A stretch of 64,000 nucleotides of DNA. Source: Hydra vulgaris. Taxonomy: Eukaryota; Cnidaria; Hydrozoa; Anthoathecata; Hydridae. Position numbers and translations under genes: made by a program. Below, in pieces: positions 22,489-45,192 of the stretch; the first letter of the stretch is position 1; each line of letters starts with the position of its first letter. The notes below the pieces were generated by a model that was not told the origin of the DNA, did no database searches, and saw only the letters and a program-made list of their open reading frames with translations. The stretch covers positions 12,767,501 to 12,831,500 of the forward strand of contig NC_088921.1 in assembly GCF_038396675.1 (NCBI RefSeq). Direction: 5' to 3'.

Positions 22489-22493
22489 TATAT

Positions 22494-26487: not shown

Positions 26488-26495
26488 GATTTTGT

Positions 26496-27659: not shown

Positions 27660-27665
27660 TTTTGT

Positions 27666-28314
27666 TTATTCTTCTTTTTCTAAACTAAAAAAACTCGTAA
27701 TAAATATGGTTACATTAGCGTGTAATATATTAACAAATAAAGTTTTTTTATCGCCGGTTCCTTCTTTTATAATTCCTTCAATGTTTCTTTTAACAGATTT
27801 TTTTTTTTAACGCTCCATCTAGTTTAACTATCAAAGAAGAGACAGTGGGTAATATTTTTGTAGTAAACGTATCTACAAAACCATCTGTTTGATCGCCATC
27901 TGTTTGATCTAAAGTAGGTTTAATATCTCTTTCAACCAATAAAATAGTGAGTTTAGATTTATAGTATTCAGTTATTTTGTTATCACCAAGAGGTTGTTCT
28001 TTTAAATTATCAAAGCGTTCGAGATGTTTTGAACAAAGTTGTGGATTTTCGAGCAAATGTTTAAATTCACTATTTTTAAAACATTTTTCAATACTGTAGG
28101 AATTTAATGTTATTCTTTTAGAATCGAGTACATTTTGTAGAAAATCAAATGATTTTTTATCTGTATAATGTTCTTCTTCTTCTTGAATATCAGACGAGGG
28201 TGAAGAGTTTCCAGATTTATTTTCACAATATTCATATTTTTTAGATACTTCGTCAAGTGCGCACACTGCGCAATTGTTGTGAATTTTTTTAATAATGCTA
28301 TCAACGCGATTCAT
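27666..28314 (-). pseudogene. Acidic/helical protein with homopolymer frameshift, unknown
   Basis: An open frame of 174 residues from 28314 to 27790 has a Cys-containing head ('NNCAVCALDEVSKKYEYC'), an acidic Ser-rich linker and a helical body. It ends inside a run of about 11 A residues (minus strand) near 27800. After it, another phase is open to a TAA at 27666-27668. A slip in the A-run explains the break. It could be a real mutation, an assembly length error or slippage. No family recognised. Confidence 0.5.
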
Positions 28315-28501
28315 TTTAAAAATAAAAGAATATGTAAAAAATTTTAAAAAACTGATTTTTTTATACTTTTTTATTTAGTTTATTAAAAGAATACGCTTCT
28401 TTTATTAATAAAAAACTCTATTTTTTTAGTTGTGGTTGTTGGATTTTGAATTTATAGCAAACAAGGAAGATCATATTTAGGGAAAAAATTGCATAAGAGA
28501 A

Positions 28502-29172
28502 TTGTGTTTGCGTTCAATTGTCGATAAACAATTTTTCCATACACAAGTGTTTCCTTGTGTGCATTTTGACACATTAGGAGAAAAAGAGAAAAAAATATTT
28601 TTATATTGTTTAAATAACATTCATGGATTAGAGTATTACCCCACTTTTAAATATACAGTCGAAATAATTTTTGTAGATTCGTTGTCGATTATTTAAAAGC
28701 TATATTTTCGAAATACGAATACAATCTTGTTTTTTATAAAGGTGGTCATATGGAAAATGATGTATTGCGCTCGATGAAAGAGCAAAAAATATATATGTTT
28801 GATTTAAATAGGTTGTTATTTCCTAAAATTTGCCTTTTACCATTATATGCTAACAATGAAGATATTTGTATGGAACATTTTTTAAATCAACAAAATAAAG
28901 AACTCACGTTGCAACATTGCCCTAAATATGAAACATTTATGTTTAGTTTATATTTGGAAGATTTTGTGAACGGATTTATAAAAGATGGTGAAGTACAACA
29001 ATATACAAAATTTAGTGTTGTCGAATACACCAGTTTTATTAAATTTATAAAAGACAATATTAAATGTATTTACATATTCAAAAAAGACAAATGTGAATGT
29101 TTTGACAATATATTTAAAGTAAATAAACTTGTATACCAACTTTTTGAAATGGAAAAAAAAAATAAAAAATAA
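28502..29172 (+). pseudogene. Broken gene, possibly RNase H-like fold
   Basis: The frame 28502-28696 and the frame 28750-29172 (140 residues) are in different phases, and the second is open upstream of its ATG to about 28690. Together they look like one gene with a frameshift near 28680-28700. 'FYKGGHMENDVLRSM' followed by 'MFDLNRLLFPKI' resembles a K-G-(G)-x-x-E motif seen in uncharacterised nuclease-like proteins of animal mobile elements; this comparison is from memory and weak. Catalytic residues cannot be fixed. Confidence 0.4.
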
Positions 29173-29185
29173 AAAAGTGCCTTGT

Positions 29186-30133
29186 TTATAATCCTTCCTT
29201 CGCAGTCACATAATATTTAGTGTAGTGAATGTTTGTATGAATAGGTTGTTTTGATACTATTTTGTTGTTCTCGTAATTATAAACTTCGTCTTCTTTTCTG
29301 TATAAAATCTTTGAAATGTTAAAATTTCTTTTAAAGAAAAAAAACCATTGAGCTGTAGGAAACATTTCTATCAAACTTTTATCGTGAAAATTACAGCGAT
29401 CAAAAGCTTTATAAATATAAACTTTATCATCTTCTATACGGACTTTTTCGAATATAAAATATTTATAAATAGGAACAGGTGTATAAACGGTGTAATAACC
29501 ATTATGAAAAACTTTATCGTTGTATGAAAAATAAAGTGGTTTTTCTATGCAAGCAGGATACTCGTTTTGTAATATTTTACAATTTTTCTTCAATTCGTCA
29601 TATTCCCATTTGTTAGATACATACGGAAATAAAAAATAATATTTTAAGGTTTGTTTAAGTTTACTTTTCCACGAAGTGCATTTCTTTTCTGTATTTTTTG
29701 TTTTGCAATAAAGTTTATACACTTTAATAAATTCATCCAATTTTTTTCTTTGTTCTTCGTGTTGCTTTTCTACTGTTGTTTTTGTTATATTTAAAAAATC
29801 ATCGTTAATCAGACGACATACTTCAAACATGGTAGCTCTCCATGATAGTGATTGTTCTTCAAAAGTCATATTGCAACGAGAAGCTTTTTCAAATAAATGT
29901 AGAGAACTTTCATAGTCTTTTGCTATGAAAATATAGTATAAATCAACCCATTTTTCTTCTTCCAAATTTAATTCCAAATTAAATTTTTTTAAATATGTTA
30001 ATATAATATCCTGCCATTCTTCATACGTGTTATTTAAATGATGAAATTCAAATAATATAGGATGTAATTCATTATCTGGATAAAAAAGTAAAACAGCTTC
30101 GATTAGATTTTCGTCTAGTTGTTTGCTAGTCAT
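29186..30133 (-). CDS. 315-residue protein of unknown function
   Basis: Starts at ATG 30133. It is a mostly helical, Lys/Glu/Tyr/Trp-rich protein. Residues about 130-180 carry a charged helix ending in 'CTSWKSKLKQTLKYYF'; the C-terminal 120 residues look beta-rich with many aromatics ('YTVYTPVPIYKYFIFEKVRI'). A TATA-like sequence at 30173-30185 lies about 40 bases upstream. No known motif is visible. Confidence 0.65.
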   Translation of the reverse strand: MTSKQLDENLIEAVLLFYPDNELHPILFEFHHLNNTYEEWQDIILTYLKKFNLELNLEEEKWVDLYYIFIAKDYESSLHLFEKASRCNMTFEEQSLSWRATMFEVCRLINDDFLNITKTTVEKQHEEQRKKLDEFIKVYKLYCKTKNTEKKCTSWKSKLKQTLKYYFLFPYVSNKWEYDELKKNCKILQNEYPACIEKPLYFSYNDKVFHNGYYTVYTPVPIYKYFIFEKVRIEDDKVYIYKAFDRCNFHDKSLIEMFPTAQWFFFFKRNFNISKILYRKEDEVYNYENNKIVSKQPIHTNIHYTKYYVTAKEGL

Positions 30134-30172
30134 TTTCTCTTTCAAAAATGAACTAGAATATTATTTTTTCAA

Positions 30173-30185
30173 CCTTTTATATAGG
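30173..30185 (-). promoter_or_regulatory. TATA-box-like element
   Basis: Read leftward this is CCTATATAAAAGG, a strong TATA match, 40 bases before the start at 30133. It suggests the gene has its own Pol II promoter instead of an acceptor-like motif. Confidence 0.6.
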
Positions 30186-30262
30186 AAAAAGAGTAAGAAA
30201 AACAAGTTTTTTAATAATAAAACAGGTTTTTTTAATTCAAATAAAAAATTACAAAAAAATAA

Positions 30263-30973
30263 TTATTCTTCATCTTCTTCTGGTACTTCAGTTTCGACTT
30301 TTACTTTTTTTGCAGGCGTTTCGTTTGTTTCTTTTTCAGCCAACTCAGCGCAAACTTTTTTCAAATTTTGATTTAAATTTCTAGGAACACCATTTTTATT
30401 TATTGTGTTGTGATAAGAAGGTTCTATAGCCATTAATCTTTCATACTCTGTAATATAAATTTCATCGTCTTCTTTTGCTATTCGTATCTGATAATTGTTA
30501 AACTCGACTGTTTTTAATATGTGAGTTTTAGGGTAAGCCACATGCATATAAGCTCTGTTTTGAGCAGCTTGCATATTATCCATTAAACTTTCCAATACTT
30601 TTTTGGTCATTTTGTTGTGAGTAAATTTAAAAACTACATTATTAGTAACTTCGCCTTTGGGCATTTTAAAATTGTTGTCGTCTTTTGTTAATTTCAATTC
30701 GCATCTGAATAAATAATTTGATTTGTTGAGATCACACATCTCTCTGTATTTCCATGGTAATAAAATTTCACAGCCTTCATTTTTTGGTTTGTAAATCAAT
30801 TCTTTTTTATTATAGTTAAATTGAGCCAGTGGTTTAAGAGGAACAGTGGAATATTGTTTATCTTTTATATTTTTTTCTTCTTTAAAATCAATAAGCCACA
30901 AAGTAGCTGCAGCTAATTCTGCAAATTTAACATAGGCGTTATCGTTGCAATAAACAACTTCAAACTCTGACAT
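30263..30973 (-). CDS. Protein with acidic tail, possible DNA-binding protein
   Basis: 236 residues, intact. A compact body of mixed alpha/beta (residues 1-195) is followed by 'PAKKVKVE', which looks like a nuclear signal, and an acidic end 'VPEEDEE'. A basic/aromatic body with an acidic C-terminal tail is common in single-stranded DNA-binding replication proteins, but no OB-fold signature can be proven by eye. A TATA match at 31021-31030 lies upstream. It is adjacent to the dUTPase gene, and both may belong to a replication group. Confidence 0.55.
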   Translation of the reverse strand: MSEFEVVYCNDNAYVKFAELAAATLWLIDFKEEKNIKDKQYSTVPLKPLAQFNYNKKELIYKPKNEGCEILLPWKYREMCDLNKSNYLFRCELKLTKDDNNFKMPKGEVTNNVVFKFTHNKMTKKVLESLMDNMQAAQNRAYMHVAYPKTHILKTVEFNNYQIRIAKEDDEIYITEYERLMAIEPSYHNTINKNGVPRNLNQNLKKVCAELAEKETNETPAKKVKVETEVPEEDEE

Positions 30974-31020
30974 TTTTTGTTTAGTTGTGTTTTGAATAAA
31001 TTTTTAAATTAAAATGAGCT

Positions 31021-31030
31021 CCTTTTATAC
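31021..31030 (-). promoter_or_regulatory. TATA-box-like element
   Basis: Reads GTATAAAAGG leftward, about 50 bases before the start at 30973. It matches the element at 30173-30185 in its AAAAGG end. Confidence 0.55.
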
Positions 31031-31286
31031 TGTTTGAGTTGAAAAGAGAGATTAAAAAAAAACAAGAACTAAACAAGTTTTTTAAAGAATGTAAAAAATG
31101 TCATAAAAGTTTAAAGTTTAAAGTGTGGTGTGATAAAAACTTTGAACTCTGTACTTTGAACTTTGTTACTTTAATTCTATTTTAATGAAATAGATTAAGT
31201 TGTCATGACTTCATTTTTATATAAAAAGAGGAAAAAATGTCTTGTTCAAACATCTTCTGTCGAAGTAAGCACTAGTGTAAAAAAAG

Positions 31287-31777
31287 ATGGATAAATGCAA
31301 TCAATGGTCTTCTGATGAAGTAAAGAGATTCAAATAAACGATACTCTAGAATGGTCTTTTTATGAAACAAAAAATAGTGCTTGTTTTGATCTGAGAAGTA
31401 AACTTGAATATACACTTCAACCCAATCAACGTGTTTTAGTACGTACTGGAGTATATATCGATACAATAGATTCAGATTTAGTAGGTTGCATATTTTCAAA
31501 ATCAGGTATAGCTTTTAAATATGGTGTTGTCGTGTTGAACGCTCCAGGAATAATAGACCCTGATTATAGAGGTGAAATTAAAGTGATACTAATTAATCAT
31601 TCAAAAGAAGAATATATTATTAAATCTGGAGATGCTGTTGCTCAAATGGGGTTTGTAAAAATGTATAAAGCTGTAAAAAAAGTAATAGAATTTGATGGTT
31701 GTGCTTGTCGTCAATTAACAATGTCAATGATTAAAAACGTTGAAAGAAAAGGCGGTTTTGGTTCTACTGGAAAATAA
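31287..31777 (+). pseudogene. dUTPase with 5' frameshift
   Basis: All five trimeric dUTPase motifs are present. Motif 1 is 'ACFDLR' near 31378 and motif 2 'SKSGIAFKYG' near 31497. Motif 3 is 'NAPGIIDPDYRGE' near 31537, motif 4 'GDAVAQMGF' near 31629, and the Gly-rich motif 5 'KGGFGSTG' near 31750. The enzyme turns dUTP into dUMP and limits uracil in new DNA. The ATG at 31287 opens a frame that stops at 31335-31337, while the motifs lie in another phase that is closed upstream near 31310. So the gene has a frameshift between these points. A TATA-like 'tatataaaaagagg' lies at 31218-31231. Confidence 0.85.
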
Positions 31778-31915
31778 TTTTTTGTATAATTTTTTTATAA
31801 AAAATGATTAAATTTGATTCTTCATTTTCTACATGAGATGTAGAATATGTGGAACAAATTTAAACATATATTGTAAATATTTTTTTGTAATTTTTTTTAG
31901 ATTAGTAAAAAAATT

Positions 31916-32515
31916 ATGGCAGATAGAATTGAATTTGATGGTGTTTACGTAAAAGAAAATACACAAAAAGAAAATGTAGTACCTGCTTTTACCATTTTTA
32001 CTAACAATCCAAATTTTTTAATGAATGAATTTTGTAATAAAATAAATGATTTAGAAATTCGTTTGTCCATATTAGAAGAAATGCACAACAATGATGGTTA
32101 CGGTAACAAGATATGGATTTTTGAAAATTTTAAACAATATAAAAACAAAAGCAAAGATTATCATAGTGTACCATTTTATTTTAAAAATTACCAATTTTTA
32201 ATGAAATTATCTCTTAATATAAAATGTGATCATCATAATAAAGAAGAAATAGGTTTGTATATCATATTGAGATCTACACCTTATGACGCTATTTTAAAAT
32301 GGCCTTTTTTAAATCACAAAGTCACATTGAAATTATGTGGTCCAAACGGTAAACAAATTAAAAAATTTTTTCTTACAGAAAACAATGTAGCTTTTCAAAG
32401 ACCTCCAAAAGATGGACAAAATTGCGGTTATGGTTTTTGTGACTTTGTAAAAAAATCAGATATTGATGAATATTTAGTAGAAAATAATTTATATATCATG
32501 TGTAAAATTAGATAA
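31916..32515 (+). CDS. MATH (TRAF-C-like) domain protein
   Basis: 199 residues, intact. A short N-terminal part with a helix ('NKINDLEIRLSILEEM') is followed by a MATH-type beta-sandwich. Its landmarks are 'KIWIFENFKQYK', 'VPFYFKNYQFLMKLSLNI', 'AILKWPFLNHKVTLKL', 'GYGFCDFV' and 'NNLYIMCKIR'. The 'L-K-W-P-F' and terminal 'NNLY' positions match the larger TRAF-like protein at 18978-20060. MATH domains bind receptor tails and substrates. A MATH domain without RING or zinc fingers could compete for TRAF sites; this is inference. 'ttttttttag' precedes the ATG. Confidence 0.8.
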   Translation: MADRIEFDGVYVKENTQKENVVPAFTIFTNNPNFLMNEFCNKINDLEIRLSILEEMHNNDGYGNKIWIFENFKQYKNKSKDYHSVPFYFKNYQFLMKLSLNIKCDHHNKEEIGLYIILRSTPYDAILKWPFLNHKVTLKLCGPNGKQIKKFFLTENNVAFQRPPKDGQNCGYGFCDFVKKSDIDEYLVENNLYIMCKIR

Positions 32516-32622
32516 TTTTTTTATTATTGCGTATCAAGTGTATAATTAAATATTTTTTTTATTATAATAATTTGTATATCAAGTGTAATAATTTGAAAAA
32601 TTTTTTTAGACAACTAATTAAA

Positions 32623-33077
32623 ATGATTCAAAATTCTTGGGGTATAATTGAAAATGAAATCAAAGAAGAAAATGAACTTAAGCAAGCTTGGAAAGTATTT
32701 TTAAACTTGATCATAAACAACATTTTCGTTTAGAAAATATACATGCATATCAACGAAGTCAAGAAATTATTTCATTTAATGATGCACTTGATAATTTCGA
32801 TAATATGTCAATGATTTTTAAACAAACTATTGGAAATATTTCGTTAAATGATCTAAACGCATATTTGATTATTTTTGTTTGTTTTCGAAAGCAATGTGAA
32901 CGTTTAAGGAATTATATAAAAAAATTTTCTTACGTTAATAAAATAAATATGAATGAGTATGTAAATAATGTGAAATTTTTTGAAAAACATTTTTTAGAAT
33001 TGTTAAGTTTTGCTAATAAGTATATTGCAGAAAATCATTTAGAATATGATTTTATTAATTTATCTATTCGTTTGTAA
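32623..33077 (+). pseudogene. Helical protein with frameshift, paralog of 33168-33620
   Basis: The ATG at 32623 follows 'tttttttag' and an A-rich leader. Its frame stops at 32733, while the phase 32688-33077 carries the rest. The switch must lie near 32690-32710, at a short T-run. The head 'QNSWGIIENEIKEENELKQAW' resembles the head of the next gene ('KNSWNKYEIERIN...ELWNAL'), so these are tandem paralogs. The product is all-helical; function unknown. Confidence 0.55.
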
Positions 33078-33167
33078 TTTACTTTTTTTAAACGAGTATT
33101 AAATTTCATGATTTGTTTATTTGATTAATGTAAAAAAATTTTTTTCTAGTCAACTAATTAAAAAAAC

Positions 33168-33620
33168 ATGGAAACTGTTGTTAAAAAAAATAGTTGGAAC
33201 AAATATGAAATCGAACGCATTAACAAATATGGAGCAATACATCATTCTGAAAAAGAATTATGGAATGCTTTGGAAAAATTATCTAAAGAATTTTATTTTC
33301 ATTTTGTTATCTTGCAAGATTTTATAAGTATGGATGAACATCAAGACGGAATATTGAAGGAGATTGAAAAAATAATAGAAGCAATAAATGAAAACATCAC
33401 ATTTATAAAAGAAAATGTAAATTTACGAAATTTGATAACAGAAACGTTATGTCATATGATTGCAATTTCCAATGTTGGAATTGAAGAAGATAATTTTATA
33501 GTATCAAGAGAAAAAGAAGAATTTAACAGACGAGATCAAGCTATGTTTTCGCATATAAAAACTAATATTGATATGAAAGATTTTAATAATTTATCTATTC
33601 ACGAAAAAGATTATTGTTAA
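33168..33620 (+). CDS. Helical protein, unknown function
   Basis: 150 residues, rich in Glu, Ile, Asn and Lys, predicted all-helical. 'NSWNKYEIERINKYG' and 'SEKELWNALEKLSKEFYFHF' relate it to 32623-33077 and in layout to 33747-34277. The start follows a T tract and 'tagtcaactaattaaaaaaac'-type leader (over 30 bases in all). Three such genes lie in a row behind the MATH gene, which suggests repeated local duplication. Confidence 0.6.
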   Translation: METVVKKNSWNKYEIERINKYGAIHHSEKELWNALEKLSKEFYFHFVILQDFISMDEHQDGILKEIEKIIEAINENITFIKENVNLRNLITETLCHMIAISNVGIEEDNFIVSREKEEFNRRDQAMFSHIKTNIDMKDFNNLSIHEKDYC

Positions 33621-33746
33621 AAAAAACAATTAAAAATTATTTTGCCAGTACTTTTATAAATATTATTAATGAGTAAAATTTTTTTTGTAATATTTTTAAA
33701 CTTTGTACTTTAAATTTTTTTGTATTTTTTAGGTAAACTAAAAAAC

Positions 33747-34277
33747 ATGGATTTAATTGAAAAATTTAAATTCATATCTGGAAAATACATCACTCATAAA
33801 TACAGAAAGATGGATAAACTGAACGCAGATGTTGCTGTTGAATATAAAATAGTAAAATATTTTGTTAAATATGGTGAAGATTTTAAACATTTTGTTAAAA
33901 ATTTTCATGACGATATTTTAAATGAAGCTATAGATGAAATGAATAAATTAATACGAGAAGATGCTGAAAAAGACTGTTTTATAAACAGATTAAAAACTTT
34001 ACAAGTGTATATGCAAGGTATCTACAAATTATATAGGATAAATCAAGAACATATTGGATGGTTGATAAGAGAAAGAGAAGAAGATAAAGAAAAACAAGAA
34101 GAAAGAGAAATGGCTATGTTAGAGTATATTGAAAAAAATGTTCCTGAATTTCGCAAAGAAATAATGAATCATTTTTCTTTTGAACACAAGAATGAAAAAA
34201 CAATACGTATTCGTGAAGAATTACAACGTTCATTTCTAAAAACAATGGAATATTTGAGCACTTTTTTTGAAGAATAA
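33747..34277 (+). CDS. Helical charged protein, unknown function
   Basis: 176 residues from ATG 33747. Almost entirely helical, with a very charged middle ('REREEDKEKQEEREMAMLE', about residues 110-130), likely coiled coil. Layout and position suggest it belongs with the two preceding genes, but direct similarity is weak. 'ttttttag' precedes the start by 14 bases. Confidence 0.6.
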   Translation: MDLIEKFKFISGKYITHKYRKMDKLNADVAVEYKIVKYFVKYGEDFKHFVKNFHDDILNEAIDEMNKLIREDAEKDCFINRLKTLQVYMQGIYKLYRINQEHIGWLIREREEDKEKQEEREMAMLEYIEKNVPEFRKEIMNHFSFEHKNEKTIRIREELQRSFLKTMEYLSTFFEE

Positions 34278-34345
34278 ATAAGTTTTTTTTAATTTGTTAG
34301 ATTAAATAAATTTTTTTATTGTTTTTTTAGATTACATAATAAAAA

Positions 34346-34570
34346 ATGGAAAATGAAATAATTACAAAAGAAATTGCAAATGAGAAGAAATCTGAAGAAA
34401 GTTGCAAATGTGAAGCTCTTTGTCCAGAATGTCAAAAACGAATTCGGGAAATAATTGACGTGATATCTGATATATCTGATAATATAAACAAAGTTCTTGG
34501 AATTGACGTAAACAAAGTTCTTGGAATTGATGTTAACAAAGTTCTTGGAACCAACTCCTTCTCTTCTTAA
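34346..34570 (+). CDS. Cysteine-cluster protein with C-terminal repeats
   Basis: 74 residues. 'CKCEALCPECQKRI' carries four Cys. After a helix ('REIIDVISDISDNI') comes a threefold repeat of 'NKVLGIDV'-type units, clearly from tandem duplication of 24 bases. The gene is preceded by 'tttttttagattacataat' and an A-run. First member of an array of eight Cys-cluster genes up to 37114. Confidence 0.62.
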   Translation: MENEIITKEIANEKKSEESCKCEALCPECQKRIREIIDVISDISDNINKVLGIDVNKVLGIDVNKVLGTNSFSS

Positions 34571-34628
34571 ATTTTTTTAATGTAATTTTTTTATATTAAA
34601 TTTTTTTTTCAGATTACATAATAAAAAA

Positions 34629-34802
34629 ATGGTAAAAATAACAATACGAGCGAATAATAGTTTTATGAGACCACTACGCATAGAAAAGTGTCCAAATTGT
34701 CCATATTGTCGAAAGACTAAAATTGTTTATGCAACGAATGAACATTTGAAGACTAAAATTGATTATGCAATGAATGAACATTCGAATAAATTTTTTTCAT
34801 AA
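34629..34802 (+). CDS. Cysteine-cluster mini-protein
   Basis: 57 residues, too short for default gene calling. It has the cluster 'CPNCPYC' and then a direct duplication of 'KTKI.YA.NEH'. The leader 'cagattacataataaaaaa' precedes the ATG exactly as for its neighbours, which is the main support for a real gene. Confidence 0.6.
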   Translation: MVKITIRANNSFMRPLRIEKCPNCPYCRKTKIVYATNEHLKTKIDYAMNEHSNKFFS

Positions 34803-34855
34803 ATAAAATAATTTTTAATTAATTTTTATTGTAATTTTTTAGTTTTCATAATAAA

Positions 34856-35104
34856 ATGTCTTTTGAATATCATGTTGAAAATTTAATTACAAAGCTTTTG
34901 TTAGACGTGGCTGTTTTTCACGATGATACTTCAACGATAAAAGAAATGAGAGAAAATGTGGATTCTTGCAACGAAGAAAATTGTTCTGGTTTGCAACCTT
35001 GTGATTCTTGTAAAAGAAATTTGGATTTAATTCGTCAATATATTGAAGAAGAAAAAATTAAACAATACGTACTTAAAATATATAAAAAATATACTTTATT
35101 ATAA
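34856..35104 (+). CDS. Cysteine-cluster protein
   Basis: 82 residues. The N-terminal half is helical with 'VENLITKLLLDVAVF'. The centre has 'DSCNEENCSGLQPCDSCKRN', four Cys in two pairs, matching 'DSCENKCNAEKPCESC' in 35683-35937. It ends in a Lys/Tyr helix. The spacing suggests one zinc site. The leader motif is present in a variant form (ttttttagttttcataat). Confidence 0.65.
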   Translation: MSFEYHVENLITKLLLDVAVFHDDTSTIKEMRENVDSCNEENCSGLQPCDSCKRNLDLIRQYIEEEKIKQYVLKIYKKYTLL

Positions 35105-35140
35105 AATTTGTAATTATTTTTTAGGTTACATAATAAAAAA

Positions 35141-35623
35141 ATGGAAGTGTTTAATGAAGGTGGAAATGAAGATGGAAGTTTTGGTATTGTTAATGATAAA
35201 ATTGTAAATAACGATCTTACATCTAATATTTACAATAATGTTTATAAAGAAATGTCTCAAAAAGAATTGGATGAATTTGTAAAACAAGTGCGACAAATCA
35301 AACCGAAAAAACTACGAGTGAAAAAATATTCAGAATATTCTTTAAAACTTTTATTACAAAGTCATGCGGAATTGTTATTTTTAGGATGGTGTTTAGGTCA
35401 TCACGATTCGGAAATGTGTGATAAAGTTTCAAAAAAAATAAACTGTATGGAAGCATTGCTCCATGTTATTTGTAAAGAACGTGATTTTGTATACGAAGCT
35501 CTTTGTAAAATTGCACAATGTGATTGTTCTCCTGTTTGTGTATTTTGTAATTTGAATGCTTGTCATATTTATGTTAGAATAAGAAGTATTTTTGGATATA
35601 GTTATTTTGGTAGAATTTTTTAA
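35141..35623 (+). CDS. Larger cysteine-cluster protein
   Basis: 160 residues. A charged N-terminal part ('MSQKELDEFVKQVRQIKPK') is followed by a helical middle and a C-terminal cluster 'CDCSPVCVFCNLNAC'. It ends in basic/aromatic residues. It starts 36 bases after the previous stop, with 'ttttttaggttacataat' between. The general order, helical part then cysteine cluster, is the same as in the flanking genes. Confidence 0.65.
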   Translation: MEVFNEGGNEDGSFGIVNDKIVNNDLTSNIYNNVYKEMSQKELDEFVKQVRQIKPKKLRVKKYSEYSLKLLLQSHAELLFLGWCLGHHDSEMCDKVSKKINCMEALLHVICKERDFVYEALCKIAQCDCSPVCVFCNLNACHIYVRIRSIFGYSYFGRIF

Positions 35624-35682
35624 ATATGTAAAATTTTTTTAGATTTATTTTTGTATTATTTTTTAGATTACATAATAAAAAA

Positions 35683-35937
35683 ATGTCTAAAACAAGTTTC
35701 GCAGAGTTTGATGTATATGAAGAATTAATGGATGCAGATATTGATTTTGATGATTTTTTGGATTATGTTGCGAAAGCGGATACAAATGGTGAAATAGAAA
35801 AACTTATGATATCTATGGATTCTTGTGAAAATAAGTGTAATGCTGAAAAACCGTGTGAATCTTGTATTCATATTTTTGATAAAGTAAAAATGTTTATATA
35901 CGAGAACAAACTCGTGAAAAAATTTCAAATGGAATGA
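35683..35937 (+). CDS. Cysteine-cluster protein, tandem paralog of 36010-36288
   Basis: 84 residues. 'MSKTSFAEFDVYEELMDADIDFDDFLDYVAKAD' type head (quoted in part: MSKTSFAEFDVYEEL) is nearly shared with the next gene (MSKTSFEDFDLYAEV). The cluster is 'DSCENKCNAEKPCESC', and the end is 'IYENKLVKKF' against 'IYDNELVNKY'. This is a clear recent tandem duplication. The acceptor-like leader is also duplicated. Possibly a small zinc protein; function unknown. Confidence 0.7.
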   Translation: MSKTSFAEFDVYEELMDADIDFDDFLDYVAKADTNGEIEKLMISMDSCENKCNAEKPCESCIHIFDKVKMFIYENKLVKKFQME

Positions 35938-36009
35938 ATCATCAAACTAATTTTTTTTGTATTTTTTTAATTTGTTGAATAAATTTTTTTTAGACTACAT
36001 AATAAAAAA

Positions 36010-36288
36010 ATGTCTAAAACGAGCTTTGAAGATTTTGATTTATATGCAGAAGTAGTCAAGAAAGATCTTAATTTTGATGATTTTTTAGAATTTGTTGCAA
36101 AATCAGATGCAAGTGGTGAATTAGAAAAAAGTATGTTTTCTACAAAAGATTGTGAATTTTGTAGTCTCATTCAATGTGGTGTCGAACGATATTTTTGCAA
36201 GACTTGTCGAGAAATTATTTTAAAACTAAAAAAATATATATACGACAACGAACTCGTGAACAAATATCCAATGGAAACGATAAAATAA
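36010..36288 (+). CDS. Cysteine-cluster protein, tandem paralog of 35683-35937
   Basis: 92 residues, same layout as the preceding gene, with more Cys in the cluster: 'DCEFCSLIQCGVERYFCKTC'. That gives five cysteines, in a CxxC...CxxC order. Helices flank the cluster. The leader 'ttttttttagactacataat' differs by one base from the common form. Confidence 0.7.
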   Translation: MSKTSFEDFDLYAEVVKKDLNFDDFLEFVAKSDASGELEKSMFSTKDCEFCSLIQCGVERYFCKTCREIILKLKKYIYDNELVNKYPMETIK

Positions 36289-36356
36289 AAAAAATTTTTT
36301 TGTAATTTTTTTATATTTTTTTAATAAATTTTTTTTTTAGATTACATAATAAAAAA

Positions 36357-36518
36357 ATGGAAAGTAATATTATATTGAGTGCTAAAAAAATTGGTTTATC
36401 AGAAGATTTGCTACGGAATACCATATATAAATATCATAAAGACGAAATTCTTTGTTTGGGTTCTTGTCCATGTTTAGTGAACAATATATGTTGTGATTGT
36501 AAAAAAAAAACGAGTTAA
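36357..36518 (+). CDS. Cysteine-cluster mini-protein
   Basis: 53 residues. A helical start ('LSAKKIGLSEDLLRNTIYKY') is followed by 'CLGSCPCLVNNICCDC', six Cys. The frame ends in a run of ten A residues followed by TAA; a length change there would extend the protein to about 36590, where Lys/Tyr-rich text continues. The canonical leader 'tagattacataataaaaaa' precedes the ATG. Confidence 0.6.
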   Translation: MESNIILSAKKIGLSEDLLRNTIYKYHKDEILCLGSCPCLVNNICCDCKKKTS

Positions 36519-36658
36519 AGATTCTACGTTCAGAATATAATAATTCCGAAAAGAAAGACTATAAATTAGTGAATGGATTATATATAGAATAATTATTTTT
36601 TTACTTTAATGTAATTTTATACTAAAAAAAATTTTTTTTAGATTACATAATAAAAAAA

Positions 36659-37114
36659 ATGGAACTAACAGAAAATGATTTGGATTTTTTGATAGAAAGC
36701 ATATACAAAATGAATCTAAATTATCCAGCAACTTTGGAAGAGATTCGAGTGAATGCGATTGCTTTAAGACAAATTTTATGTCGTCAATGTAAATGGTATT
36801 ATTTGAAATACAAGTGGGATGGGTTTTTTAATGAAGAAATGAAAAGAATACCTTATATATTGATTTTGATGGTGTTTCAATATGTTAAAATTTATTATCA
36901 TGTTTATTTGAATTTAAATTTTGAAAGTTTTTATAATTTTTATGAAAATATATCTAAAGAAGATTTATTAAATCATGTAAAGGAAAAATGTTTAGAAATT
37001 GAAAAATGTAAACATTATTTGAACGAATGTGATGATTGTGATGAATATAGATATTCTGATGGAGAAAGTTGTTCATTTATATATTGTGAAAAATGTTTTG
37101 ATCAAGTGTATTAA
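36659..37114 (+). CDS. Cysteine-cluster protein, longest of the 3' array
   Basis: 151 residues. A helical N-terminal half with 'CRQCKWYYLKYKWDG' and a C-terminal 'CKHYLNECDDCDEYRY...CSFIYCEKC' region, a ring of eight Cys. The last gene of the series before two short membrane-like genes. Only 12 bases separate its stop from the next ATG, and these are 'aattttttttag', leaving no room for a separate promoter. Confidence 0.65.
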   Translation: MELTENDLDFLIESIYKMNLNYPATLEEIRVNAIALRQILCRQCKWYYLKYKWDGFFNEEMKRIPYILILMVFQYVKIYYHVYLNLNFESFYNFYENISKEDLLNHVKEKCLEIEKCKHYLNECDDCDEYRYSDGESCSFIYCEKCFDQVY

Positions 37115-37126
37115 AATTTTTTTTAG

Positions 37127-37345
37127 ATGAATAAAATAAATGAAAATGATATTAAAATGTTGGAGTTATTAAAAAAACAAAAAAATGTATTGAATGAGGA
37201 CAAAGTATTAGCTGTGAAATTTTTATTACTTGTTAATGGCAACAAAAACAATTTTTCAAATCAAGTGGAAAAAGTCATTGATAGAAACATTATATATATG
37301 ATGATTTTTGTAAAATACGCTATATTGTATTTATATTCAAAATAA
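37127..37345 (+). CDS. Small protein with C-terminal hydrophobic end, paralog of 37356-37582
   Basis: 72 residues. 'MNKINENDIKMLELL' head, helical middle and hydrophobic/aromatic end 'IYMMIFVKYAILYLYSK', possibly a membrane anchor. The ATG is directly preceded by 'ttttttttag'. The following gene starts 'MNNINENKK' and ends 'CIYFYSK', so the two are duplicates. Confidence 0.55.
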   Translation: MNKINENDIKMLELLKKQKNVLNEDKVLAVKFLLLVNGNKNNFSNQVEKVIDRNIIYMMIFVKYAILYLYSK

Positions 37346-37355
37346 ATTTTTTTAG

Positions 37356-37582
37356 ATGAATAATATAAATGAAAATAAAAAATGTTGGAAAAAATAATAA
37401 ATATGAATTCTTTGGCAAAAGAAAATTTACAAAATGAAACTTTAAGTGACGACGAAATATCATCTTTGAAATTTTTATTGAATGAAATTGATAGTGACTT
37501 TTTATTTAAATTACGAATGAATTTGAATTATGAACTTATTTTTTTGTTTTTTTGTACTTGTATATATTTTTATTCAAAATAA
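37356..37582 (+). pseudogene. Damaged paralog of 37127-37345
   Basis: The ATG at 37356 follows 'tttttttag', but its frame closes after about a dozen codons. The phase 37382-37582 continues with 'MLEKIINMN...SSLKFLLNE' and the hydrophobic end 'LIFLFFCTCIYFYSK'. Comparison with the preceding gene places an indel at about 37378-37384. It may still be translated from the ATG at 37382. Confidence 0.5.
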
Positions 37583-37624
37583 AAAATGTTTTTGTAATTT
37601 TTTTCAGTTAAAATAATTTAAAAA

Positions 37625-38857
37625 ATGTTATCTTTGCAACAACAAAAAGCACTTCAATGGCTTGATGAAGGAAAAAAATTTTTTATTACTGGTGGTGCTG
37701 GTTGTGGTAAAAGTTATATTGTCAAAGAAATTGCACAAAGTATACAAATTTATAAAACAATACATATTACTGCAAGTACAGGAAAAGCAGCACATTTATT
37801 AAATGGTGTCACTATACATGCTTTTGCTGGTATAGAAACTGGTGTTAAAAGTGTAGCTTATTATAAACGACATATGCATCCAGATATTAAAATTACGTGG
37901 TTGGAAACTGATGTTTTAATTATTGATGAAATTTCAATGATTAATGCTCAAACCTTTGATTTGTTGCATATAATAGCTTGTGAAATTAAACAATGTTATG
38001 ATGAATTATTTGGTGGTATACAAGTTATTGCTTGTGGTGATTTTTTTCAATTGCCACCTATTAAAGGAGAATTTGTTTTTAAATCTAAAATATGGCAACA
38101 ATACATGACAGAAGTTTTGGTTTTAACTGAATGCTTTAAACAAAAAGAAGATGCGCAATTTTTTGGAGCTTTAAACGAAATACGTTTTGGTCGAGTTTCA
38201 GAACAAACTATTGATTATTTTATAACACGATGTTTTGAAAAAGATGAAAATTTGAATAATAAATACACAAGATTATTTTTTAGAAATGTGGAAGTTGATT
38301 TTCATAATAATGATAAAATGAAAAGTATAAAGAACGAAGGTTATTGGTTTTACGCTAAAGATGTAATTAAAAATCCAAACGTACAATGTTCGTTTCAAAT
38401 ACCAGCAGCTGTTTATCTTAAAATTGGTGCTATTGTTATGCTGGTAAAAAATATCAACGTTGAAGAAGGATTGTGTAATGGCACTGTTGGAACAATTATT
38501 TTAACAGAAAATAATGCTGTTTGAGTCAATATGAATGGAAAAGAAGTTAAAATTGAATGTATTAAAGAAGAAATTTTAGATTGTTCTCATGCTGTTGTAG
38601 GTTCAAGATTGGGTTTACCTTTAAAATTGGCTTTTTCTTTTACTGTTCATAAAGCGCAAGGATCTACAATGAATAAAGTGGTTGTTAATTTTAATTCAAA
38701 GGCTTTTAATAATAGTCTATATTACGTTTCTTTATCACGTGTTTGTAATATTAATTATATTTTTATAATAATTAATAATAAATTAGAATTACGAAAAATA
38801 TTTGAAAGTTTAACTGTTGATTCAGATGTTTTGGAATTTTATAAAAAATACATGTAA
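37625..38857 (+). pseudogene. PIF1-family helicase with one in-frame stop
   Basis: A superfamily 1 helicase of the PIF1/RecD type. Walker A is 'FITGGAGCGKSYIVKE' near residue 20, and 'ASTGKAAHLL' (motif Ia) follows. Walker B is 'VLIIDEISMI', motif III 'GDFFQLPPI', then 'LTECFKQKE'. After the stop come 'FSFTVHKAQGSTMNKVVV' and 'YVSLSRV' (motifs V-VI). A TGA at 38522-38524 interrupts an otherwise continuous frame just after 'CNGTVGTIIL'. The enzyme would unwind DNA during element replication. Without readthrough the product lacks the last motifs and cannot work. The start follows 'tttttttcag' and an A-rich leader. Confidence 0.88.
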
Positions 38858-38875
38858 TTTTTTTAGATATAAAAA

Positions 38876-39634
38876 ATGAAATTTGAATATCAAACTGAGG
38901 AAAGTAAATTTAGTAACAATAGTATATACACTGAACATTTTTTTTACATTAAAGATAATTATAAAGATGAAGATATTGTAGAAGAATCACAACTTTATTC
39001 ACAAACTCAAAGTCCAGATGAAATTGTTTATGATGTAGAACAAAAAACAATGGAAGGGTTTGAAACGCAAATGAAAAATAGTATTCATTTTGCTGATTTG
39101 TTTCAAAATTTTTTAATTGGTTATAATATTGTTACTTTGTGTTGCAAATCTATTGAAAATGGTTATTGTAAAATAATGAAACGTTGTTACAATTCGCCTG
39201 TTTATTTTATAAAACCTTTAGAAGAACCAACTAATTTACGTTTTATTCAAGATGCCAATGTGCGAGCTGTTTTTAATATTTTAGAAAACGATAGTGGATG
39301 GAAATTGATACGTTTATGCAATTTTAAAATTAAAACTCTATCTAATTTAACAGAAAGGTCAATGATGAAATTACGAGATTTTGAATTGTCAGGTTTTAAA
39401 AGAAAAATGCTCACGACAGATGAACATAATCAAAAAAAGAAAAAACATAATAAATTATATTACGAAAAAAATAAAAAAACTATTTTGGCTAAAAAAAAAG
39501 AAGCAAATAAAATAAAAAAGAGAGAAAAACACGACAAACTTTATTACGAAAAAAACAAAAAAAGAATTTTATATAAAAGTCAACAAAAGAGGAATAAAGA
39601 AATTGATGCAAACGAATGGTTTGGTGAGTGGTAA
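38876..39634 (+). CDS. Unknown protein with Lys-rich tandem repeats at the end
   Basis: 252 residues. The acidic N-terminal third holds 'EESQLYSQTQSPDEI'; the middle is globular with several Cys. Residues about 190-240 carry two copies of 'KLYYEKNKK..IL.K' with long Lys runs, a basic repeat that may bind nucleic acid. The gene starts 18 bases after the helicase stop, across 'tttttttagatataaaaa', so both are probably on one transcript. No family recognised. Confidence 0.6.
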   Translation: MKFEYQTEESKFSNNSIYTEHFFYIKDNYKDEDIVEESQLYSQTQSPDEIVYDVEQKTMEGFETQMKNSIHFADLFQNFLIGYNIVTLCCKSIENGYCKIMKRCYNSPVYFIKPLEEPTNLRFIQDANVRAVFNILENDSGWKLIRLCNFKIKTLSNLTERSMMKLRDFELSGFKRKMLTTDEHNQKKKKHNKLYYEKNKKTILAKKKEANKIKKREKHDKLYYEKNKKRILYKSQQKRNKEIDANEWFGEW

Positions 39635-39828
39635 AGACCTCATTCTTTAACACAATGGTAAAAATCGCAAAAAGCGCAAACTTTTACAAAACTCTCTTAT
39701 GAACAAAAAAGAAAAATGTTTTTAGATTAGAGTATTTTATTTGAACCAGGTTTATGTTTTTATTCTGCTTTTTTAATCTCTTTGTTAATTCGTCAATGGA
39801 ATGTGAGCACAATTAAAGAATGGAATAA
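39635..39828 (+). other. Degenerate stretch between two genes
   Basis: About 190 bases with short open bits in all frames and one 'tttttagattag' at 39719. It probably holds the damaged 5' end of the polymerase gene, because the frame after 39829 is already protein-like. Confidence 0.4.
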
Positions 39829-42800
39829 AAAGTTTTAGAAAAAAATACAACTGACTTATATTCAGAAGAAAATATTTTTCAACTCCTTTTTGAAGATCAA
39901 AATGAACAAAATATTTTGGCTTGGAAAAATGTTTTACAAAATTTAAAAGAAAAATCTAAAAATATGTCATTTCAAACTTTGATTGATTTGTGCCACTGTT
40001 TTGCTTATGAAAATACTTTTGATCGTATTAACATTAAAATTTTCGCTGTTAACAAAAGTAATACCAAAATTCGTTTATTGCATTCGAAATTAAAATCACA
40101 ATATAAAAGTACTCTTACAGAATTATTAAAAGTGGTCTACGAAAGCGCAAACATTACCAAAGACGATCAAGATTCTCAAAGAGTTTTTATTAATGACGAG
40201 GAAAAAAATATAGCTAATCAACGGAAAAAAACAAAAAACACAATAAAAATTTGTATTTTTCAAAAAAACAATTCTTTTCATGCTATAAGTATGTTGAATG
40301 AAAAATTTTCTACTGTACATTTTTCTTCCAACAAGTCACGTGTTATTTTTCAATGTTCAGAATGTGGAAAAAAATTTACTACAGAGACACACGAATGTGA
40401 AGGTTTTTATAAACCTGACAAATTTACATACAACGATTGCATTAGTCACTATCGTCCACAAAATTCATTCATGTGTACAAGTAGAAACTTGTTTCCTTTT
40501 TTAATGACGTTTGATTGTGAAACAAATATTACAAAGTCTGAAGAAAATCCCACTTCAAAAGTTAAACCTTTATCAGAGTTGAGTTACCATTGTCATTCCA
40601 TCGTCATTCAATGCATTCATGAAACATTAGTAAGAGAATGTTTTGGTTTAGATGAACAAGGACACGTGATTAGTCAATGGATTTTTTATTATGAAAATAC
40701 TATTGAAAGTTTAGAAAGAAATCCTTTAATGTGTTTACCTGCCTATTTTCAACCAGGAGTTTCTTTACTTCACAAAACACACAGACGTATATTATGGGAA
40801 AAATTAAATTTGACTCAAGAAAATAATGAAAATTTAAAAATGGAATTACGAGTTTATGATTTAATAGCTTTAGCAGACACTTTGGTTCGATGTGCTTACG
40901 AAATATGTTTACCGCGTTTTCAAAATTTAAAAATATCATCTGAAGAAAGAAATTTAATATGGCAAGAAGAAAATCCTTTATGTTCTATTTGTAGATATCC
41001 TGTAGATAAAATACATCAATCTGATATTTATAAAAATAAATTTTTTCACATGACTCCTCAAGAAATAGAAAGATTAAATCATAACGAATTTCGTATTTAC
41101 AACGACAAACGAATTCAAGTTGTTAATATCATGTTTCAAAGACTAGGTCGTTTAGAATTGTTCATGTTACCTTTAAATGTTCAAAATTATTTGATCAACA
41201 ACGATGCAGAAAAAATAAAACAAGATTTATTTCAAGTATCGAGTTTGTTTTATATTTGTTGTAGATGGTGGGAAAAATTTCAATATCTACCTGCTACTAA
41301 CGGTTTGTTAAGTGATTATGTGAGAATAACCACTGAAGTACTTGTAGATTATATGAAGCAACTGGCTTCCCTTGTTATGACAGATCATCAGCTAGAAAAC
41401 TATTTTGATCAAGAGTATATGGAGTTGTTAGATGATCCCTACTTTTTAATCAAAATCTTTCGCAAATGTATCAACGAAGTAGGTGGTCAAAATACAGATA
41501 ATCTCTATTTTTTGTTTCTTATAAGAAAGTTAAAGCAACCCGTCTACGAATTATGGTATCATAGCATGTTGGTTTCTTTTAATAAACAATTTGAAAAAAA
41601 ATTTAGTTTATCTGATTTTATTCAAGATGAAAAAAATAGAGAAAAAGTTTTGAATAAATGCTTTTTTCTCAACGCTTTTGAAGATTATCTTGTTGTTGAT
41701 CACGATCATTTTTCAGGACAAGTTTACGGATTGGCTCACAATTATTGCAACAAAAATTTTGGCAGATATAATCAACATTTATCTTGTCCTATTTTTGCCC
41801 ACAATGCTTCTTTTGATAACCGTATTATGATTGTAGAAGGTTTAAAAAAAAAATTGGATATTCCTTTATACGGTCATTTGGCTGAATCTGAAACAACACC
41901 TTTTAACGCTTTTATCAAATATAGCAACATGGAGGATGTTTTTGTTAAATCGAAAAATGTGAGCAAAGTTAATATTATTTGCATTGGTAAACATATTAAA
42001 ATTGTGGACAGCTTGAAAATTTTAAATTGTTCCTTAGAACAAGCCAGTAGTATGTTATCACAAAAAGCCCAAAATCAAATTATCAACACTATGTTGCATT
42101 ATTTACGTCCTTTTCATCCTGAAATTAATCATTTAACTGAGAATATAGAGTTTAAAAAATGTTTTATTAAAAAAACATTATTTCCTTATTCACAAATAAC
42201 TGATGAACTATTAAACATTGAATATAAAACAATACCACCTATTGAATTATTTGCTCAAAACGATTTGATGAAATCTAAAAATTTAGAAGAAGAAATTAAA
42301 AAAATTAAAGAAGCTTATGAAAGTGTTCAAAAATTATGGAAATTTTTAAATTTAAAAAATTTAAAATCCTTATTACATATATATACTATACTTGACACAG
42401 TAGTATTGGGTTATGGTATGATTGACTTTGATGAAAGAACATTTGAATTTACAAAATTTCATATTCTTAATCACGTTAGCAGTTTTAGTTATACAAGCAA
42501 ATTAAATTCTACAATTAGTTTAATTCCTGCTCAATTTCCGCCAACCAACGAACATCAAAAAATGATTGAAAAGAGTATTCGGGGTGGCATGTCAACTAAC
42601 GGCACACAAAAATTCGCCATTGATACTGATCATTTCGAACCTAAAATAAAAGAATTCAAATTAAATAGTGTATTAAGAGGTTGCTTAATTTTTATGGATG
42701 AAAATGGACAATACGGAGGAGCTCAATTAAAACCCTTACCTTTTCACATGAAATATTCTTTTGATTTGGAATGTGTTACTTTAGAGGATGTGATTCAAAA

Positions 42801-44591
42801 ATACCATCGTGTTAATTTAAACGGATTTTCAACAAGTGCTTTAGTCCATTGTCAAATTGCTATGAAACCAGAGTATCAAGATCAAGTAGGAGGTTTTTCA
42901 CCCATGGTAGAAAAGGAAATTATATCTTTACAAGATTATTCTCCAACTGAAATTGTATCTAAACGCTATCTCAAAAATAATGGAAAATATACTATAGAAA
43001 AAGACAAAACTATTAAATTAGTCATGAAATTAAGTTCACATGAAACGTGTGAATTTTTAGACACTTTAATATGGTTGACTACGTGTTGTGGATGTGTTGT
43101 TGAAAAAATTTACAAAGTACTACCTTTATGGCGTTATCCTTTAGCACAAGAAATGGTAAAAAGAAATATGGAAAAAAGAAAAGAAGCCATTAAAAAAGGT
43201 GACAAAGTAGTTGACGCTTCGTGTAAATTACAGATTAACGGACATTACGGCACATTAAGTCAGCAAATTGCGCAAAAATTAAATACTACTTTTATCAATC
43301 ACGAAGAAAAAGCATTTCAAAATATCATTGAAAATTTTCAAAACATTCGTCACGTTTTAATTAGAGAAGGTCAAACGAATGAAAATATTAAGCTGTTATT
43401 TCCTTTTCATTTTCAAAATTTATTATATAACGAATCAGTGTTTATTGGCGTTGAACCTGAAAGATATAAATTGGACGTTTTTGAAAAAAAGTTTGTTTAG
43501 ATTATTACGACACTGCTGATTTTAATTACGACGATTATTTTAAAGAAATGCTTCTCAATTTGATTACTGATGTCAAAACAAAAAGTATTTTATTTCATGA
43601 TGAGAACAATCATTACGAAATGAAAGATGTTTTTGAACTTTTAAAAATAAAAGATCATAAAAATGCTCTCATTTTAACAACCAGCGAAAAATGCAAACTC
43701 GTTAATAAATCTTTACGTATTGTAGCTTCACAAATTTTATCGTATGCTAAACTTAACGTTGGACGTTTTAGTTGGGAATTCGGGCAAGTATTAAGAAATC
43801 ATGGAGCTGAAAAACATTTAGTAGTAACGGATACTGATTCTGGTTGTTTTTTCATTACTCAAAAGAAAAAGAAAAACAATATGCTTACTTCAACGTTTCG
43901 CGAAAAAGTAGATGAATGGATTTATTTTTCAAAATTTGGTGATCGTTGGATGGATTATTCCAATTATAAAAAAACTCATCCTTTTTATTCCACTCTTTAT
44001 GATAAAGAAACTGATCATTTTCAAAACGAAATACCCCCTCCCTATTATATTGCTTAAGCTTTTGCTATGGGACCTAAATGTTATAGCGTTCACAGCTTCA
44101 ATGGAGATGAAGAAAAAAACTATTACAAAAATAGAGCTAAAGGTCTACCTAATTCTAAACTCTTATTTTCAAATTATGTTAACGGTTTTGATACCTTTGC
44201 CGCAAAAAGATTAAGTAAACAACTTCCTTTTGCAGTGGTAAAAGAAAATCAACTTATTGAACAAAATAGAATGAGTATCAATTACAAACAAGTTAAAATA
44301 CAAACACACGTTATTGATTTTTTAAAAAGATTTACACAAAAAAATTATGTTTTTGATGACGGAGTCATGACTGAAATTCGAGATCATTATCTTTTAAAAC
44401 CAATACGAGAAGCCAATTTAAAAGTGTTACCCGATATAGAAAAATTTTGTAGTGATGAACACATTCAAAATTTACTTGAAATTGAAAACAATATTATAAA
44501 ACAATCAGAACGTTATCAAACAATGGCTATGTTTAATCGAAAAGTTTTGATCCCTTTGTTATACGATCTTAAAAAAAATACAAATTTGTAA
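39829..44591 (+). pseudogene. Family B DNA polymerase (Polinton type), interrupted
   Basis: Very long gene, over 1,500 codons. In order: 'LMTFDCETNI' (Exo I) near 40503; 'CSICRYPV' and 'VVDHDHFSG...AHNYCN' near 40982 and 41690, a split HNH/treble-clef-like insertion. Then 'FAHNASFDNR' (Exo II) near 41797 and 'YTILDTVVLG' (Exo III) near 42383. Polymerase A 'FMDENGQYGGA' lies near 42691, B 'KLQINGHYGT' near 43226 and C 'VVTDTDSGC' near 43825. It replicates the element, in this family by protein priming. Breaks: a phase change at an A-run near 43485-43491 (the first frame stops at 43498-43500) and an in-frame TAA at 44055-44057, inside a normally conserved block. The 5' end is also unclear. Confidence 0.9.
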
Positions 44592-44612
44592 ATTTTTTTA
44601 TATAAAAATAAA

Positions 44613-44944
44613 ATGGAGTTTAATTTTTTTGATCAAAAACTGACAACACAACAACTTAAATGGGACTTAATTTTTTTAATCAAAAGTTAACAACTCATCA
44701 ACTTGAAAATAAATTAAAAGAAATGGGTTTAAAAGATTTTTATTTAGAAGAAAATACACAAAACCTACTCGAATATATGCAACATACAGGAGAATTACGT
44801 AGTTCACGTATTATTTTAAATACTTCTCTTAGTACCCAATTAATACCCGAAGAAATTTTAAAAGGTTCTACTGAACGTTTTCTTGAATATTTAAATAAAG
44901 TGTTAAAAAGAGAATTTACTTGTTATTTAGAAAAAGAAAAATGA
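44613..44944 (+). CDS. Small protein with partial duplication of its 5' end
   Basis: The clear frame starts at ATG 44660 (94 residues; 'FNQKLTTHQLENKLKEMGLKDFYLEE'). The 47 bases before it, from ATG 44613, are a diverged copy of its first 48 bases in another phase, leading to an early stop. So the 5' end was tandemly duplicated. 'GLKDFYL' recalls 'GFHDFYLKG' at the start of the packaging ATPase, which may point to a shared binding peptide. The stop overlaps the next start as ATGA. Confidence 0.6.
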
Positions 44945-45192
44945 TTGATAATATATTATTAACAGAAGTTTCAAAACGACTGAGTCGAGATTGGAAAACA
45001 TGTGGAAGATATTTAAAAGTAAACGAATGCGAACTGGATTTTATTGATGCAGATTACAGATATATTGAAGAAAAAGCTTTTCAAATGTTAAAAATATGGA
45101 GTCATAATGGAACCAAAGAACAATTACTTTATGCAATGAACAAGATACCAAGAATGGACATTAAAAAAATTATTTTAGACGGTTTTTTGTAA
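44941..45192 (+). CDS. Death-domain protein
   Basis: 83 residues, essentially one Death domain: 'LLTEVSKRLSRDWKTCGRYLKV' (helices 1-2 with the conserved Trp), 'ELDFIDADYRY' (helix 3 and turn), 'EEKAFQMLKIWSHNG' (helix 4 with Leu and Trp) and 'TKEQLLYAMNKI' (helices 5-6). It is the best match of the three in the element. Cellular Death domains join receptors, adaptors and caspase-type effectors; a single-domain protein could block these by binding. Here it sits in the core gene run between polymerase and ATPase, overlapping its upstream neighbour by ATGA. Confidence 0.78.
   Translation: MIDNILLTEVSKRLSRDWKTCGRYLKVNECELDFIDADYRYIEEKAFQMLKIWSHNGTKEQLLYAMNKIPRMDIKKIILDGFL

Follow-up and report, generated by a model that had tools for sequence, protein, structure and literature searches.

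Splice-acceptor-like sites before the accessory genes of a Polinton/Maverick-like element in Hydra vulgaris

Polinton/Maverick elements are characterized by terminal inverted repeats (TIRs), a 6-bp target-site duplication, an integrase core, a PIF1-like helicase, and their size. In the adenovirus major late unit, many genes are served by one promoter and many splice acceptors. Here, we analyzed a 64,000-nucleotide stretch of the Hydra vulgaris genome (assembly GCF_038396675.1, contig NC_088921.1, positions 12,767,501 to 12,831,500, forward strand; hereafter, the window) that holds a 42.5-kb, virus-like insertion of the Polinton/Maverick kind. Its small accessory genes lie in two arms, one on each strand, and most of them are preceded by a run of T residues ending in AG. 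Comparison of many copies favours reading this motif as a 3' splice site rather than as a promoter, and we consider it probable that each arm is a polycistron headed by a TATA box and cut into mRNAs by spliced-leader (SL) trans-splicing of the host. As proposed, each arm would resemble the adenovirus unit in having many genes, one promoter, and many acceptors.

The closest described system, the RFC140/flp operon, comes from the same host genus; its intergenic region combines a T-rich stretch, a pyrimidine tract, and an AG at which the operon was experimentally found to be resolved (PMC3273482). That piece had no promoter activity, and mutating the AG plus three AGs just downstream abolished downstream expression (PMC3273482). 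However, RFC140/flp comprises two host genes with 417 nt between stop and acceptor, whereas the virus-like element has 16 and 11 listed sites in its two arms and gaps down to about 12 nt. Possibly 67-94% of Hydra genes are trans-spliced (PMC7986045), and host SLs were also found on 30.9% of AEP transposable-element Iso-Seq reads (PMC12220107). The latter study places Maverick among the putatively active transposable elements, all of which showed expression, but its available text reports no SL result specific to Maverick, and "operon" appears nowhere in the main text. For dinoRNAV, viral RNA and endogenous copies were tied to the SL of the dinoflagellate host (PMC10235124); this is an RNA virus with the SL at its 5' end, and no acceptor array is described in the available portion. 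A search of open-licence literature (titles and abstract openings, with most subscription papers outside its scope) found no report of operons resolved by an SL in Polintons or any other DNA virus, nor of Polinton/Maverick arms punctuated by acceptors, as proposed here for the Hydra element.

Acceptor-like sites in the two arms

An earlier, sequence-only reading of the window had claimed at least 16 plus-strand genes with the motif. Exactly 16 were listed by hand, with ATGs from 31916 to 38876 (two of them, with ATGs at 32623 and 37356, are broken), and each of the 11 positions it had offered as examples has a T-run and an AG, the latter lying within about 11 nt of the position named. A minus-strand cluster (15.4-22.1 kb) that it had overlooked carries the same motif, with 11 further hand-listed sites. 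The comparison with shuffled sequence that it had proposed was run automatically, as six pyrimidines plus AG at most 40 nt upstream of the ATG of open reading frames (ORFs) of at least 50 aa. The motif preceded 15/17 plus-cluster, 7/13 minus-cluster, and 1/33 other ORFs of the element; overall, 23 of 63 carried it, whereas 1000 dinucleotide shuffles averaged 2.06 and never exceeded 8. When the minimum ORF length was raised to 90 aa, the count was 14/42 (1.39 expected; shuffle maximum, 6).

The sole motif-bearing ORF outside the clusters is 26496-27659, and some of the ORFs there overlap (e.g., 46447-47127 and 47124-49220). Both plus-cluster misses, 32805 and 38531, are read as ORFs starting inside broken genes. 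Of six misses in the minus cluster, two (18434 and 15750) are an inner piece and a second exon, one is gene 16770 with its weaker T/A-run, and one is the head gene 22762-23145. Upstream of the 30 cluster ATGs, 22/32 pyrimidine runs of 6 nt or more end in AG, compared with 7-8% of such runs element-wide (697 and 501 runs on the two strands). The base at +1 varies across the hand-listed sites (A 14, C 7, T 4, G 2). As a separate observation on the minus strand, a 121-nt repeat (D5) occurs as three diverged copies within 16136-17168, each with a TATAG acceptor and a leader start.

The same arrangement recurs elsewhere in the genome (911.5 Mb searched, 15 contigs). The exact 21-mer TTTTTAGATTACATAATAAAA occurs 621 times and its reversed control never; among 100 listed sites, most are grouped, in groups a few kb wide. 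In 12 other copies of the element, the motif precedes 119/196 ORFs of at least 50 aa, including some large downstream ORFs such as one of 989 aa in L016. AG ends 117/186 of the pyrimidine runs before ATGs in these copies versus 22% of all 992 same-strand runs, a background that includes the runs before ATGs. Leaders measure 15-16 nt at 59 of the 119 sites and are absent at 17, where AG directly abuts ATG; these 17 are spread over 11 of the 12 copies, and two small genes start in this way in most copies. The distance from stop to AG is 9-20 nt in 34/113 cases and zero or negative, i.e., overlapping the called upstream ORF, in 8/113. Gaps as short as 12 bases, as the sequence-only reading had reported, do occur: gene 37127-37345 has no leader and begins only 12 nt from the previous stop. 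Such a gap, together with AG|ATG starts, leaves little room for a promoter and a 5' untranslated region (UTR). Seven extra stretches were chosen for the minus cluster; five of them had the motif before 27/54 ORFs and the other two (L036 and L038), which probably miss the cluster, before 0/9.

Conservation was assessed over 659 ordered, non-independent ortholog pairs in which the motif was required in one partner only and mean amino acid identity across the first 60 residues was 0.65. Nucleotide identity was 0.94-0.96 at positions -8 to -1 (TTTTTYAG), 0.82 at +1, and 0.63-0.77 at -28 to -11. The AG was retained in 626/659 pairs; of the 33 exceptions, 16 concern three ORFs (L011 4235, L014 4436, and L019 4343) whose starts were perhaps miscalled. 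A cis-intron in the minus-strand gene 22034 provides a second line of evidence. In an alignment of the window with five copies (of the seven fetched, L036 and L038 gave no usable match and were omitted), all six sequences retain the GTAAGT donor and the TTTTTTAG acceptor, while the intron body varies. Because this conserved intron ends in the same acceptor, the T-run+AG form would appear to serve in nuclear splicing of the element. Since constraint peaks on TTTTTYAG and drops at +1, the cis-intron shares the acceptor, and some genes start at AG|ATG, a 3' splice site is favoured over a promoter, in agreement with the sequence-only reading.

If the motif were instead an initiator-type or virus-specific core promoter of each gene, with transcription starting at or just after the TAG, it would be natural for every gene to have its own copy and for the leader downstream of the AG to be conserved as well; TTAGATT also fits a general initiator pattern. 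We regard this as quite unlikely, given where conservation peaks and falls. In addition, TATA boxes are conserved at the heads of both arms, whereas nothing notable is conserved at -28 to -11 of the internal sites; the AG|ATG genes would be left without a 5' UTR; and a cis-intron of the element has this sequence as its acceptor. A giant-virus-type promoter was rejected because the element holds a conserved spliceosomal cis-intron. It is very improbable that the likeness among leaders is a functionless by-product of tandem gene duplication. Some neighbours, such as 35683 and 36010 (repeat D7), are indeed duplicates with the entire leader in common, but the motif is found on both strands before genes of different families (MATH, Death-like, PIF1, and orphans), and it is constrained relative to the upstream flank across copies, so the equal divergence of a by-product is not seen. 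The promoter-only and by-product readings were both rejected after consideration.

Trans-splicing and the source of a leader exon

Under the mechanism that we propose, host RNA polymerase II would start at one TATA promoter per arm (~31.22 kb on the plus strand and ~23.18 kb on the minus strand) and produce a long polycistronic RNA from each. The Hydra spliceosome would join a host SL exon, of the SL-B1 class or a relative, at each TTTTTYAG, and each small gene would then be expressed as a separate capped mRNA whose native leader is 0-18 nt long. Upstream messages would be cleaved and polyadenylated at the AG sites, and most genes outside the two arms would be expressed in some other way. The sequence-only reading had thought a polycistron cut by the host leader plausible. 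The splice-site half of that proposal is supported here; the SL joining, the polycistronic RNA, and the upstream cleavage and polyadenylation are what we infer from these sites. TGTA-type words are enriched between stop codons and T-runs (e.g., TGTAT, 53/110 vs. 11.0, with gaps in the copies below 0 or above 150 nt dropped, as for AATAAA below). They also concentrate roughly 15 nt before the AGs, next to the T-run, where the bin from -15 to -11 holds 48 across 135 sites and 0 across 54 control sites. These words, or AATAAA in the leaders, could serve 3' end formation.

SL genes are present in the host. The 3' end of SL-B1 occurs 367 times in the genome (control, 4), and among 100 listed places there are two tandem arrays on C1 as well as dispersed ends. 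We inspected 20 of these places, comprising one member of each array and 18 dispersed ends (L042-L059). In both array members (L040 and L041), SL-B1 is accompanied by a donor and by an Sm-like site, as expected of SL-B1 RNA genes, and this agrees with the sequence-only reading's statement that Hydra uses SL trans-splicing, as does the published operon resolution (PMC3273482). The upstream part of the SL is kept in 11/18 dispersed ends under a strict pattern, about 12-13/18 run into one shared retroelement-like start, and some (L058 and L059) have two or three SL ends in tandem. Because dispersed ends run into retroelement-like starts, SL-bearing RNAs appear to have been retroposed into the genome. 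At L050, the SL-B1 end is followed by GTAGGC, and this place may be an SL gene relative. A search for SL-B1 inside the element found no exact core in the window, and the best local score on either strand was 15, against 13-19 in six shuffles.

The main rival is one that the sequence-only reading had also raised: adenovirus-like cis-splicing, in which one element-encoded leader exon near the distal promoter is joined to every downstream AG. The same acceptors would serve, the element does form cis-introns, and GTAAGC lies about 50 nt past the plus head TATA, both in the window and in two of its close copies, L021 and L022. However, the aligned position reads GACAG or GTCAG in the other 8 of 11 sequences, and no donor in the interval from the head TATA to the first acceptor is common to all 11. 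Donor-like sites past the TATA recur within sub-groups, and none is universal: they lie at +49/50 in three sequences (one of which has another at +62), at +60 in a single sequence, at +204 to +213 in three, and at +510 to +514 in two, with none in the remaining two. The element thus differs from the adenovirus unit in having no universal leader donor in this interval, and we keep the single distal leader as an unlikely alternative. Two of the 12 upstream stretches fetched for the plus head (L027 and L028) had no match to the head region. The comparison at the minus head covers four of the seven copies fetched, and the stretch from one of them (L034) is another region.

Several observations weigh against SL-resolved polycistrons. 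The leader is conserved again at +5 to +8 (0.90-0.95), for which splicing gives no account. A genome search for SL-B1 ends joined to the common element leader, covering this one SL end and one leader form, gave 33 matches with at most 3 mismatches versus 47 for the reversed control. The scarcity of strong donors (GTAAG/GTATGT) in the plus cluster (sense strand, 2 vs. 7.3 ± 2.6, with GTAAGT absent) speaks for trans-splicing, but it is unspecific: the core plus sense strand also has few (4 vs. 13.4), and the minus-cluster sense strand is not depleted (2 vs. 2.9). The AG and the pyrimidine at -3 were fixed by the selection of hand-listed sites. Gene 21159-21440 and ORF 16260-16457 in the minus cluster have no clear site. 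Lastly, AATAAA shows no enrichment in the stretch from stop codon to T-run (34/110 vs. 25.7; shuffle maximum, 39), and the model offers no explanation for its enrichment in leaders after the AG (59/95 vs. 32.0; maximum, 41).

If an SL is joined at these sites, a double-stranded DNA virus-like lineage would evade the eukaryotic one-gene-per-mRNA habit via host trans-splicing, and with 16 and 11 listed sites in its arms it would do so on a far larger scale than the two-gene host operon shown in Hydra. Such elements would be tied to SL-using hosts, the packing of accessory genes 12 nt apart would be explained, and the sites would be natural minimal trans-splice cassettes for Hydra genetics. On balance, we lean toward the view that the accessory genes (MATH, Death-like, and orphan) are organised as two long operons with minimal host trans-splice sites, such that gene gain would be a plug-in event and expression of the arsenal would be confined to SL-using animals.

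The element, its genes, and its surroundings

The TIR arms (15343-15437 and 57722-57816) are 97% complementary, and TATGTC adjoins both outer ends (15337-15342 and 57817-57822) as a 6-bp target-site duplication would; the repeat listing that includes it has other short chance repeats near the element ends as well. ORF 49616-49891 matches a retrovirus-like integrase core (rve PF00665, E 1e-7, 32.5 bits, 0.1 bit below the curated cut-off), which we counted as the family's integrase. A PIF1-like helicase gene from 37625 (PF05970, E 3.7e-35) and a dUTPase (PF00692, E 1.5e-22 over 31352-31774) are also present. Given the TIRs, the flanking TATGTC, the helicase, the near-cut-off integrase core, and the dUTPase, the insertion fits a Polinton/Maverick-like element, which its size matches as well; the tools used confirmed no polymerase, protease, or capsid identity. 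The sole above-cut-off match of the 1178-aa ORF 39964-43500 is Endonuclease_7, with no polymerase match, and ATPase-like domains in 45258-46508 are below cut-off only. Pfam, PHROG, and PDB searches of the element proteins returned no match naming a capsid or protease. Two scans of viral contigs yielded no relatives of 45258-46508 or 51728-53587, and protein searches with 51728-53587 and 33747-34277 gave none. The structure model of 54646-56088 was too poor (pLDDT 40.7) and was discarded; a protein search with this ORF found two relatives, one of them named Hydra vulgaris and 64% identical over 39% of the query. Rfam gave nothing at gathering score within the window. The features are listed in Table 1.

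Table 1. Positions of the element, head promoters, acceptor-like sites, and predicted cis-introns in the window (test, automated motif test; list, hand list)
Feature	Coordinates	Strand	Basis or remark
Polinton/Maverick-like element, 42.5 kb	15343..57816	.	TIRs at both ends
TATA box, head of plus cluster	31215..31228	+	Conserved in window and 10/12 other copies' upstream stretches
dUTPase, first plus-cluster gene	31352..31777	+	PF00692; 5' part seems broken in this copy
T-run+AG, MATH-domain gene 31916-32515	31891..31900	+	Test, list; PF21355 6.8e-18
T-run+AG, gene from 32623	32600..32609	+	List; broken in this copy
T-run+AG, gene 33168-33620	33140..33149	+	Test, list
T-run+AG, gene 33747-34277	33723..33732	+	Test, list
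T-run+AG, gene 34346-34570	34321..34330	+	Test, list
T-run+CAG, gene 34629-34802	34603..34612	+	Test, list
T-run+AG, gene 34856-35104	34833..34842	+	Test, list
T-run+AG, gene 35141-35623	35115..35124	+	Test, list
T-run+AG, gene 35683-35937	35657..35666	+	Test, list
T-run+AG, gene 36010-36288	35984..35993	+	Test, list
T-run+AG, gene 36357-36518	36331..36340	+	Test, list
T-run+AG, gene 36659-37114	36632..36641	+	Test, list
T-run+AG, abuts ATG of gene 37127-37345	37117..37126	+	Test, list, copies
T-run+AG, abuts ATG 37356	37346..37355	+	ORF broken here, intact in other copies
T-run+CAG, PIF1-like helicase gene from 37625	37598..37607	+	Test, list; broken here
T-run+AG, gene 38876-39634	38857..38866	+	Test, list
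TATA-like promoter, head of minus cluster (gene 22762-23145)	23171..23186	-	Block conserved in window, L033, L035, L039
T-run+AG, intron-containing gene 22034	22044..22053	-	List
Predicted cis-intron, gene 22034	21834..21904	-	Exon frames read separately
Cis-intron, gene 22034, GTAAGT...TTTTTTAG	21651..21728	-	Donor and acceptor kept in 6/6 aligned sequences
T-run+AG, Death-domain-like gene 20791-21120	21135..21144	-	Test, list
T-run+AG, gene 20381-20740	20758..20767	-	Test, list
T-run+AG, gene 20131-20334	20346..20355	-	Test, list
T-run+AG, MATH-domain gene 18978-20060	20074..20083	-	Test, list
T-run+AG, gene from 18855	18869..18878	-	List; broken in this copy
T-run+AG, gene 17560-18303	18320..18329	-	Test, list
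T-run+AG, gene 17121-17534	17549..17558	-	Test, list
Weaker T/A-run TATAG, gene 16770-17048	17064..17073	-	List; outside automated count
Weaker T/A-run TATAG, gene from 16134	16152..16161	-	List
Predicted cis-intron, gene 16134	16000..16070	-	Window sequence
T-run+AG, gene 15489-15731	15741..15750	-	Test, list

The element has three Death-domain-like genes: 20791-21120 on the minus strand (PF00531, E 3.5e-4, 21.1 bits, below the cut-off of 22.6), 21159-21440 on the minus strand (E 1.3e-5), and 44941-45192 on the plus strand (E 1.1e-10). With the two MATH-domain genes, one in each arm (18978-20060, minus; 31916-32515, plus), they are possible mimics of host signalling. In the host flank, a NACHT-domain gene (13476-15035) lies beside the element, and the left flank also holds a 42-nt tandem repeat (12458-13086, D3).

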